DNA of 52,136 nucleotides from Planctomycetota bacterium. GTDB lineage: Bacteria; Planctomycetota; B15-G4. How positions within the stretch are numbered: position 1 is the stretch's first letter; each line of letters begins with the position of its first letter. Position numbers and translations under genes: made by a program. The notes under the pieces are model-generated. The model was not told where the DNA came from, did not search any database, and was given only the letters and a program-made list of their open reading frames with translations. The stretch lies in contig JAJDER010000010.1 of NCBI GenBank assembly GCA_029259725.1, forward strand, positions 1 to 52,136, given 5' to 3'. Below are positions 29,128 through 32,048 of this stretch, piece after piece.

Positions 29128-29601
29128 ATGTCGGAGCTGATCGCAGGCGCCGCGCTGCTCATCGCCATCACGTGCCTGGTGATCGTGCGCCGGGTGCGGG
29201 CCGTCGAGAAGCGGCTCGCGTTCAGCCAGCAGCGCAGTGACCTGATCACGGTGCTGCTGGAGGCGCAGCTGCTCCTGCGCGCCGAGGTCCTGCCCCTGGG
29301 CCGCCTCGCACCGGTGAGCCTGTCGCCCCGCTGCCGCTCGCGAATCGGCGAACTGATGCGCAAGACGGAGACGCTCCAGCGCAACCTGGCCGAGCAGCGC
29401 TCGCGGCTGGACGGCCTCGCCGTGCCCGAGGACCCGGGGCCGGTGGACCGCGCCGAACTGGCCGACGTCGCCAGCCGCGTCCAGGACCTGGCCGGCGACG
29501 GGGCGTGGCTGGTCGAGCAGTCCCAGGCCGTCCGGGTCGACCTGGACGCCGCCGCGGTGCCCTACGGACCGGACGGCCGGCCCCAGCTGCGGCGTCGCTA
29601 G
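29128..29601 (+). CDS. Small membrane-anchored coiled-coil protein
   Basis: 157 residues, not recognised. A single N-terminal membrane helix (LIAGAALLIAITCLVIV) is followed by a basic RRVRAVEKR stretch and a long Leu/Glu/Arg-rich helical region (about 50-120) with coiled-coil character, then a Pro-rich tail. This is the layout of small structural or scaffolding membrane proteins. SD GGGAG is 8 nt before the ATG. Its stop overlaps the end of the convergent selenoprotein gene by 4 nt. Confidence 0.65.
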   Translation: MSELIAGAALLIAITCLVIVRRVRAVEKRLAFSQQRSDLITVLLEAQLLLRAEVLPLGRLAPVSLSPRCRSRIGELMRKTETLQRNLAEQRSRLDGLAVPEDPGPVDRAELADVASRVQDLAGDGAWLVEQSQAVRVDLDAAAVPYGPDGRPQLRRR

Positions 29602-31106
29602 CCTGGCAGCACGACCTCGAAGTCGCGGCGCAGGTACACGCACTGCCCGTCGACGTCCTCGCAGGCGTAGAACAGCGCGTAGCCGCCGAGCACGGTGCCC
29701 GGAGCGATGTCGTCGGTGCGGAGTTCCAGGTCGAAGTGCCGCGTCTCGAACGACACCGGCTCGGACGGCAGGTCACCGCGCAGGGACCGCTCGGTGACCG
29801 TCACGCCCTCGGGCAGGTCGGGCGCGCCGATCCAGATCTCGACCGGGTCGGCCTCGTTGTTCCAATGCACCCGGGTCTCGTCATTCGGCCACAGGTCGAC
29901 GTGCAGGCGCGAGACCCCGGCGCGGCCCTGGGTGTCGGGCACGACCACGGCGTTGACGAACAGCCAGTCCTCCTCGGCCCGCGGGACCAGGCCGCGCGGG
30001 TCCGGGTCGACGGCTGCACCGGTCACGATCTCCTCGCGCGACGGGCCGAGCCGTTCGGTACCCGTCAGGGGCACGGGCAGCGGCACCGGCGTCTCGCCGC
30101 GCGCGGTGATCTCGGCGCGCGCCTCGTCGACCCAGTCATAGAAGGGGTAGGGCTTGTCGAGCCGCGGTCCGTACTGCTGGATGCGCCGCCGCCAGATGTA
30201 CTGCGCGGGGTCCATGTCCAGCGCGGCGCGCCAGTGCTCGATGGCGCCGGCGAAGTCGCCCGGCTGCCTGAACGCACTGTCGTGCCGCGTGCGCAGGGCC
30301 ACGCCGAGGCGCCAGTGGCCGAGCGGATCGTCGGGGAAGCGCTGCACGAACTCGCCCAGGAACGTGACGGCGAAGTCGAGGTCGCTCCGCGCCGGGGGCT
30401 CACCCCGCATCACCCTCGCGCCGTTCGCGACCAGGTGGTTCATGGCGCTGGTGCCCATGAAGACATGGCGCTCCTCGCCCTCCAGCTCCGTCCGCCGGTG
30501 CAGCTCGGCCAGATTGGCATGGGCCGCGAGGAAGTCGCCGAAGGCGCGACCGGGATGCAGGCCACCGGCCCGCTCCTCGGTGAAGAAGGCCTCGGCGTCC
30601 TCGACGCGCGCGCCGTCCTTGACCACCACGCCCTGCTCGTCGATCAGCGAGACGCGCGGCACCGCCGTGGTCCGCGTGAGGTTCAGCGGGTCCCAGAGGA
30701 TCGGCCAGTCCAGGCCCTGCCACTGGGCGTAGAGCTTGCAGCGGTCGGGATGCTGCTCCTGGGTGATGCCGAAGACCAGCAGGTCGTCGCGGTCACCGAG
30801 CCCGTCGATGAAGTCGTCCCAGACCGGGACGTGCCGGCGGCAACCCGCTCACCAGGAGGCGAACTGGATCAGCAGCGTGCGCCTGCCCTGGTGTGGCAGC
30901 GCATACCAGGTGCCATCGAGCGCCGGCAGGCGCAGCTCCGGGAGGCGTTGTCCCTCGACGATCGGCGCATGGGCCCAGATCGCGAGGGCTTCCTCCAAGA
31001 TCACCTGACGGTCATCGTCCTGGGCCGACAGGAGCGGCATGATGAGCAGGAGACTCGCCGCCGCCGCCAGGCCGGCGAGGGACCTTGACCGACGGACGGG
31101 GATCAT
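29598..31106 (-). CDS. Predicted selenoprotein: thioredoxin-like (Sec-x-x-Cys) exported protein with TPR-like region
   Basis: A 502-residue product if the UGA at 30849-30851 is read as selenocysteine (residue 86). Before it: signal peptide MIPVRRSRSLAGLAAAASLL, then a thioredoxin/TlpA-like start with LRLPALDGTWYAL and LLIQFASW. After it, in the same frame with no other stop: AGCRRHVPVWDDFIDGL, VFGITQEQHPDRC and the cis-Pro segment TAVPRVSLIDEQG. The motif is thus FASW-Sec-AGC, where homologs have CxxC. A GGUCU-loop hairpin follows the UGA. Residues 242-303 look TPR-like and 330-502 are beta-rich. The role would be thiol-disulfide redox outside the cytoplasm. If the UGA were a real stop, the two halves would be a pseudogene. 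SD GGAG 7 nt before ATG. Confidence 0.75.
30815..30831 (-). promoter_or_regulatory. Candidate bacterial SECIS hairpin
   Basis: On the minus strand, 17 nt after the UGA, arms CGTCCC (30831-30826) and GGGACG (30820-30815) form 6 bp around the 5-nt loop GGTCT. The loop starts 23 nt after the UGA. A GGUCU loop is the same as in the E. coli fdhF element, and bacterial SECIS models require a G among the first two loop bases and a spacing of roughly 16-37 nt. Confidence 0.72.
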
Positions 31107-31124
31107 GATCGCGCTCCGCTTGCT

Positions 31125-31142
31125 GGCACCGGATCGGGTGCC
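31125..31142. repeat. Inverted repeat GGCACC/GGTGCC upstream of the selenoprotein gene
   Basis: Perfect 6-bp arms at 31125-31130 and 31137-31142 with a 6-nt loop, 19 nt upstream of the ATG at 31106. It may be an operator or 5'-UTR hairpin. Confidence 0.45.
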
Positions 31143-31170
31143 GTCATCGCACCACGCCCTCCCGTCTCAC

Positions 31171-31224
31171 GCAAGCGCGGCAGGTTGCGCAGGCGCGGTA
31201 GGCTCCGCAAGCGCGGCAGGCCCG
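31171..31224. repeat. Three 18-bp tandem repeats in the WaaP-like kinase promoter
   Basis: Units at 31171-31188, 31189-31206 and 31207-31224, each of the form GCAAGCGCGGCAGG plus four variable bases; the middle copy has A-to-G, C-to-T changes that create the TAGGCT box. Confidence 0.75.
31199..31204 (+). promoter_or_regulatory. Candidate -10 box TAGGCT within the repeats
   Basis: 22 nt before the ATG at 31227. It exists only in the middle repeat copy, where the flanking copies read CAGG plus TT or CC. Confidence 0.4.
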
Positions 31225-31226
31225 AG

Positions 31227-32048
31227 ATGACCACCTGGGCCGTGAGCGTCCACCGGGAGGCCGGCCTCGGGCTGGAGACCGGCAACCAGCGCGAGATCTT
31301 CGAGCGCGGCTGGCAGCACGTCGCCATCCGCCCGAACGCGTGGCGCGGCAACGGGCCGGTGTCCACCGACGCGGGCCGCTTCTTCGTGAAGGGCCTGCGC
31401 ATCCCGCTGATCCGCAAGAAGCAGCGCTGGGTCCAGCGCTGGGACATCGAGCGCGAGGCGGCGGCCCTCGAGCAGCTGCGCGGTCTCGGACTGGACGTCC
31501 CCGAGGTCGTGGCCTGGGGCACCGAGCGGGTGGCCGGCATCTCGTTGCGCTCGTTCCTGATCACGGCGTTCCTGGACCAGACCACCAACCTCGAACAGTG
31601 GATCGCCGCGCACGACACCTGGCCGGAAACGCTCGGCGCCGAGGAGCGCGAGATCCTCACCAGCGCCGGCCGGACCCTGCACGAGCTGCACCGGGTCGGC
31701 TTCGCCCACGGCGACATGGCGTCCCGCAACATCCTGGTCCACCCCGCCGGCCGCGCCGCGCGCACCAGCCTGATCGACGTCCCGCGGCTCGTGGCGCTGG
31801 ACACCGACAACGCGAACATGGACGGCTTCCGCCTGGTCAAGACGGCGATGAAGGCGGGCCTGCCGCGTGCGGCCGCGGCACTCCTCGCGGCCCCCTTCTC
31901 GGGCGGAGACGGCGCCGCCTTCGTGGCCGACGTGGAACGCATCCGCGCGATCCCGGGGCGGCTGCGGCGGAAGCTGGCCTATCACCGCTGGCGTCGCCGC
32001 GACCGGGCGGCCGGCGAGGCGGGCAGCAGCGACACCACGGCGGGCTGA
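31227..32048 (+). CDS. WaaP/Kdo-kinase-like LPS kinase
   Basis: 273 residues with a protein-kinase-like fold of the lipopolysaccharide kinase family, which phosphorylates core sugars of LPS. K55 in FFVKGLRIP is the ATP lysine. E76 in WDIEREAAALEQL is its partner. The catalytic loop is FAHGDMASRNILV (H161, D163, N168), followed by SLIDVPRL with the metal Asp. A start at 31227 is preferred over an upstream in-frame TTG because the upstream segment is just the translated repeat array. Fits with the ADP-heptose and GT genes at 19-22 kb as part of LPS core synthesis. Confidence 0.85.
   Translation: MTTWAVSVHREAGLGLETGNQREIFERGWQHVAIRPNAWRGNGPVSTDAGRFFVKGLRIPLIRKKQRWVQRWDIEREAAALEQLRGLGLDVPEVVAWGTERVAGISLRSFLITAFLDQTTNLEQWIAAHDTWPETLGAEEREILTSAGRTLHELHRVGFAHGDMASRNILVHPAGRAARTSLIDVPRLVALDTDNANMDGFRLVKTAMKAGLPRAAAALLAAPFSGGDGAAFVADVERIRAIPGRLRRKLAYHRWRRRDRAAGEAGSSDTTAG

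Follow-up and report, generated by a model that had tools for sequence, protein, structure and literature searches.

A minus-strand gene (29598..31106) in the 52,136-nucleotide stretch of Planctomycetota DNA that we analysed (contig JAJDER010000010.1; hereafter the window) almost certainly encodes a genuine selenoprotein. It belongs to a new selenoprotein family within a known kind, found so far with selenocysteine (Sec) only. Our favoured reading, which as a whole we put at roughly 60%, is an exported Sec reductase in which a C-terminal DsbD-alpha-like dithiol would serve as electron donor in cis and would be recharged by a membrane hub. Within it, we infer the export, the direction of reduction, the passage of electrons between domains and the substrate.

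The gene comprises 502 codons plus TAG, running from ATG to TAG in the frame 31106..29598 with a single in-frame TGA at codon 86 (30849..30851, minus strand). This UGA sits at the first redox residue of a ResA/TlpA-like domain (FASW-U-AGC), and the resolving Cys89 of the UxxC motif lies at 30840..30842 on the same strand. The frame and UGA position given in the original prediction proved exact, with no second in-frame stop. An upstream frame without a Pfam match (31942..31103) ends in a TGA that shares the sequence ATGA (window positions 31103-31106) with the start codon, and the two frames might be coupled. TGA is an ordinary stop nearby, terminating both the frame with a LysR and the frame with an APP1 Pfam match.

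Clear orthologues were present in seven other genomes among 39 searched, each with TGA at the motif. A single-protein search of genome contigs returned no relatives; a search with an alignment then gave 143 loci in named bacterial genomes, 80 of which were taken for reading and, together with the window protein, form an 81-row protein alignment. Orthologues from the 39 genomes enter these rows only if their contig doubles as a named locus. The residue after [FWY]ASW is UGA in 80/80 of these named loci (80 of the 143 found). Sec86 and Cys89 are invariant in 81/81 rows, a long open frame follows the UGA, and the downstream residues are conserved. The active site reads U-x-G-C, x being Ala in 72 members, Arg in eight and Gln in one. 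Within the window's phylum (392 genomes), TGA was present in 41/41 site-covering matches of at least 179 bits (motif read in 30 of the 41). Within the phylum to which Acidobacteria bacterium Mor1 belongs (396 genomes), it was present in 17/17 site-covering matches above 400 bits, a count that leaves out G505, at 430 bits and with TAG, and G778, at 242 bits, in both of which the Sec site is uncovered. These three sets of relatives (80 named loci, 41 and 17 matches) overlap. No full-length Cys form was seen among all the loci examined, that is, the 80 of 143 named loci and the phylum-wide matches. The expectation that relatives would carry Cys in place of Sec86 was not borne out; the homologues show UGA again, and neither Cys nor any other residue. 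A TGA arising from sequencing error is ruled out, as independent genomes carry it too. The relatives belong mostly to Planctomycetota, Acidobacteriota and Gemmatimonadota, with three in Verrucomicrobiota and single bins of Armatimonadota, Actinomycetota and Chloroflexota, these single-bin records being weak because bins can hold stray contigs. The tree is deep (median end branch 0.46 changes per column), and a branch with full support separates the nine Gemmatimonadota rows from the rest.

A hairpin follows the UGA (30815..30831, minus strand), with a 6-bp stem (CGUCCC/GGGACG, 30831-30826 with 30820-30815) that starts 17 nt past the codon and a GGUCU loop (30825-30821) with a G-C pair across it; this loop we take to be that of the E. 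coli fdhF SECIS. Counting confirmed the predicted stem, loop and spacing. The bSECIS criteria given in the available text of PMC13188914 are a loop of 3-9 nt with G in its first two positions, a stem of 4-16 bp, a distance of 16-37 nt from the UGA and a minimum free energy of at most -7.5; the window hairpin has a 5-nt loop (GGUCU), 6 bp, a distance of 23 nt and -9.4 kcal/mol. By simple count, 66 of the 81 genes reach the -7.5 kcal/mol limit and 15 miss it. Taken singly, the hairpins are unexceptional: synonymous codon shuffles of the window gene yield one of equal or greater stability in 16% of cases, and over the 81 genes the median is 19%, with values of at most 5% in 11 genes only. Per-gene stability is thus a weak test; the case for a SECIS rests on comparison rather than on a single hairpin.

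That comparison places the best hairpin at the identical position (23 nt from the UGA, 5-nt loop) in 71/81 genes, shifts it by one closing pair in three and selects another hairpin in seven, all with Arg following Sec. These seven URGC members (L046, L049, L061, L082, L083, L094 and L098) have a longer alternative hairpin nearer the UGA, of 8 bp in six and 7 bp in L061, possibly a second SECIS type inside one family; L074, the remaining URGC member of the eight, has the common hairpin. Along the ungapped alignment 97% of stem cells pair, compared with 22-53% in slid controls, and both stem sides have changed in 39 cells against a shuffled mean of 11. Pairing is lost at the outermost position of the stem in 11 of 80 distinct rows, and at one inner position in six. 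At two wobble positions, the third codon bases of Pro94 and residue 95, the nucleotides are complementary in 81/81 genes (C-G in 51, G-C in 27, A-T in three). In 5000 draws from each gene's own codon usage the count averages 26.9 and never exceeds 42; such draws ignore relatedness, and 66 representatives below 85% identity still give 66/66. Protein constraint cannot yield this complementarity. Codons 93 and 97 covary in five genes (GTC/GAC twice, GTA with TAC or TAT, ATT/AAT), against counter-cases in which GTG stands unpaired with AAT or AAC (seven genes) or forms a G-U pair with TAC (three). Judged from these sequence comparisons, the hairpin downstream of UGA 86 is a SECIS. The covarying hairpin and the UGA in 81/81 rows bear out the assignment of Sec to codon 86 and the view that more than a chance mutation is at work, an argument to which complementarity across the loop contributes and the lone hairpin of the window gene does not.

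Selenium machinery was only partly recovered from the window's own genome, an 84%-complete assembly. The presence of sel genes, on which the original prediction was to be judged, held for selB, which is complete (333 bits, cut-off 242), and did not hold in this assembly for the other three: selA was not found, selD scored no more than 42 bits (cut-off 125), and a sibling's tRNA-Sec used as query gave no real match. One tRNA-Sec candidate at 49 bits (threshold 47) was taken as another long-arm tRNA; scores of at least 59 bits occur in 31 of 39 genomes. Each of the five relatives searched from the same family carries both selA and tRNA-Sec. Because the sibling G005 has selA, selD and tRNA-Sec clustered in a stretch of 8 kb, the three absences might all come from a single gap in the assembly. 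The contig carrying selB holds no tRNA by ARAGORN, and the sibling sel regions that were fetched contain no selB, which places selB apart from the sel cluster. Among five frames scanned in G002, selD was absent. More broadly, selA occurs in 37/41 genomes with the gene and in 208/351 without it (Fisher p 3e-5, with thresholds chosen post hoc), and in 10/10 tested genomes of the named loci. In the region G302:C46:94162-98314, where L127 holds the gene, the gene and selA share a strand and are ~1.4 kb apart.

The protein combines an N-terminal signal with three domains, as the original prediction had outlined. Residues 1-28 (31023..31106, minus strand; MIPVRRSRSLAGLAAAASLLLIMPLLSA) form a probable export signal with a modelled helix at residues 7-26; hydropathy is a weak test here (74/81 members, compared with 51 for an internal control stretch), and export is plausible. 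Residues 50-178 (30573..30959, minus strand) form a ResA/TlpA-type thioredoxin domain. The window protein scores 29.7 bits with Pfam Redoxin (PF08534), above the gathering cut-off of 26.6, and the Foldseek matches of this domain (3kcm, Etrx2, ResA, StoA) agree with the thioredoxin fold that had been proposed. The TPR-like middle, residues 220-335 (30102..30449, minus strand), was likewise recovered, with TPR models matching up to 60/81 members, helices in the structural model and a conserved tail (QYIWRRRIQQYGPRxDKPYPFYDW). An AlphaFold2 model with Cys in place of Sec, built from the 81-row alignment (mean pLDDT 84.4, pTM 0.84), also reproduced the beta-rich end.

This end (residues 380-500, 29607..29969, minus strand) is, on modelling and profile alignment, a putative DsbD N-terminal-like (DsbD-alpha) beta-sandwich. 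Modelled alone, it adopts a beta-rich fold with a pLDDT of 93.4. It holds a CX6C pair, Cys482 (29661..29663, minus strand) and Cys489 (29640..29642, minus strand), each invariant in 81/81; besides the active site, the only other column with Cys in more than 15 of the 81 rows is 123, within the thioredoxin domain. We aligned a profile of the end domain (the first 45 of the 81 rows) by hhalign with DsbD_N domains from the relatives' own genomes (20 of 30 loci; L161 and L166-L174 excluded). The alignment reached a probability of 96.5% with a score of 59.1 over 114 columns and the Cys columns coincided, compared with at most 1.0% and a best score of 15.8 for one reversed and 59 column-shuffled decoys. 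Other searches said less: Pfam gave no family for the window's end domain at E up to 10, the DsbD_N model (PF11412) matches 5/45 members (best E 0.0071) and the window domain stays below its gathering cut-off, and a sequence search of the PDB with the end domain returned nothing real. From the profile evidence, the end domain is likely homologous to the DsbD N-terminal domain. Several relatives (L145, L146, L147, L153 and L157) and the window's own genome (L149) also have frames of ~296-435 codons that match DsbD_N and in which, by eye, the membrane part of DsbD is missing.

On our favoured reading, SelB would bring Sec-tRNA to the UGA, directed by the hairpin that starts 17 nt downstream. Sec86 would then attack an oxidised substrate of the cell envelope, and Cys89 would resolve the intermediate, leaving a Se-S bond. 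The Cys482/Cys489 dithiol, from the same chain or a neighbour, could reduce the Sec86-Cys89 bond and would itself be recharged by a membrane DsbD-type hub, while the TPR-like helical middle would join the Sec domain to the DsbD_N-like end. A full DsbD with N, TM and Trx parts is encoded in the window's genome, and therefore a hub exists. Gene context added no operon or substrate clue: when the frames around the 81 genes were clustered, the largest cluster covered 6/81 loci, and ten neighbouring frames in the window showed LysR, APP1 and radical SAM domains only, with no redox link.

The leading alternative, to which we give about one chance in four, accepts the selenoprotein but has the Ig-like end serve as a scaffold, or bind a partner, with a disulfide that is structural; a separate reductase would then recycle Sec86. 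It would fit L008 (G037), a locus outside the 81 that keeps UxxC and has lost the C-terminal Cys pair; the pair is thus dispensable in at least one lineage, or another donor can substitute, and the relay is not shared by every member. Foldseek on the end domain, indecisive in itself (DsbD at rank 44, E 0.014, TM 0.37), places many non-redox Ig-like folds above DsbD, and NPCBM_assoc matches 16/45 members. A purely structural role sits less easily with a Cys pair that is invariant in 81/81 and coincides with the Cys columns of DsbD_N when the profiles are aligned.

It is less likely still that the selenoprotein is a peroxidase, or an oxidase or isomerase of envelope proteins, rather than a reductase. 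Sec suits peroxide chemistry, and the thioredoxin domain matches the AhpC-TSA model in 79/81 members and Redoxin in 78/81, both of which speak for such an enzyme. The nearest solved folds, however, are of ResA/TlpA/StoA type, and the DsbD_N-like end suggests a supply of electrons. The motif is also UxxC, as against the TxxU given for Sec peroxiredoxin in the available text of PMC13188914.

The remaining two readings are very unlikely. That the UGA is a true stop, by nonsense mutation or sequencing error, leaving an 85-residue fragment, could appeal to UGA being an ordinary stop in this genome and to the three of four sel genes missing from the assembly, but UGA stands in 81/81 divergent members with a long open frame and conserved residues beyond it and a covarying hairpin. 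That it is read as Cys or Trp, through a code change or programmed read-through, would fit the failure to find tRNA-Sec in the assembly, but selB is present, the SECIS covaries, and selA and tRNA-Sec accompany each other in the 5/5 same-family relatives searched.

Among described families, the closest is NF041054 (WAxxUGC_long). It is the top NCBIfam hit for the window protein, yet at 49.4 bits it falls well short of its cut-off (300), and none of the other NCBIfam models attains its own on this protein. By E-value NF041054 ranks first in the NCBIfam table; it matches 81/81 members (E up to 0.01), and so does a TlpA NCBIfam model. In both families Sec occupies the corresponding position of a ResA-like domain, after which comes a TPR-like part, whereas the NF041054 active site is U-G-C, one residue shorter than the U-A-G-C of the window protein. 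For eight weaker-match proteins, NF041054 is the best NCBIfam model in 8/8 (104.8 to 305 bits; one passes the cut-off), with U-G-C in L175 and L178-L182; these proteins are also longer at the N-terminus, by over 100 residues. At the Sec site, L177 has C-T-C and L176 has no redox pair (119 and 118 bits to WAxxUGC_long, respectively), so this sister group includes Cys and degenerate forms. Pfam DsbD_N at E up to 0.01 matched 0/8 of these relatives, a weak comparison given that the window protein also lacks a Pfam match there. L175 (624-1745, G000:C120) is a second UGA gene in the window's own genome, of WAxxUGC_long type (290.2 bits, cut-off 300), and by eye the hairpin past its UGA (CUGCC-CGGGU-GGCAG) has the same shape as in the window gene's family.

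Relative to DsbD, the end domain is a probably homologous Ig-like domain with paired Cys at matching columns (PF11412), yet the window protein has neither DsbD_TM nor Thioredoxin_7 by Pfam and, unlike DsbD, carries this domain as the C-terminal part of a chain with a Sec-thioredoxin. ResA, TlpA and StoA are single-domain Cys proteins; the window's thioredoxin domain has their fold and active-site placement, in a Sec form with two extra domains. At the level of the thioredoxin domain, the available text of PMC13188914 lists a 'Redoxin family protein, PF08534, UxxC', referring to PMC2398784 and PMC5029168, an entry that probably corresponds to Prx-like 3 of GOS and shares the Pfam Redoxin domain and UxxC with the window protein. 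In the part of PMC2398784 available, Prx-like 3 has 2,608 Cys homologues in GOS, whereas none was found for the window family among the loci examined. Its fusion form there, 'Unknown_3', is described with an extra domain and three conserved Cys including a CxxC, as against two in CX6C here; the two are set apart by description only, and a partial overlap of the window family with this fusion category is possible. The initial impression of an undescribed protein stands for the family (49.4 bits against 300) and falls for the domain, PF08534 with UxxC being already catalogued in what is available of PMC13188914. Judged on titles and abstract openings, the literature yielded no description of the window architecture, and no paper was found pairing 'selenoprotein' with 'WAxxUGC'.

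According to the available text of PMC12013277, almost all selenoproteins have numerous Cys homologues. The present family spans several phyla and has yielded no Cys form so far, which makes it well suited to asking what Sec is required for. We tentatively suggest a Sec-obligate enzyme, with a selenol thioredoxin and its own DsbD-alpha-type reductant on one polypeptide, in which no switch to Cys has occurred across these phyla and whose reaction might not tolerate sulphur. For annotation, a UGA read as a stop splits the gene into two halves, and a new model of the NCBIfam type would help. The fusion with a DsbD-like domain would also allow the transfer of electrons to a Sec thioredoxin to be measured in a defined system made of one chain.
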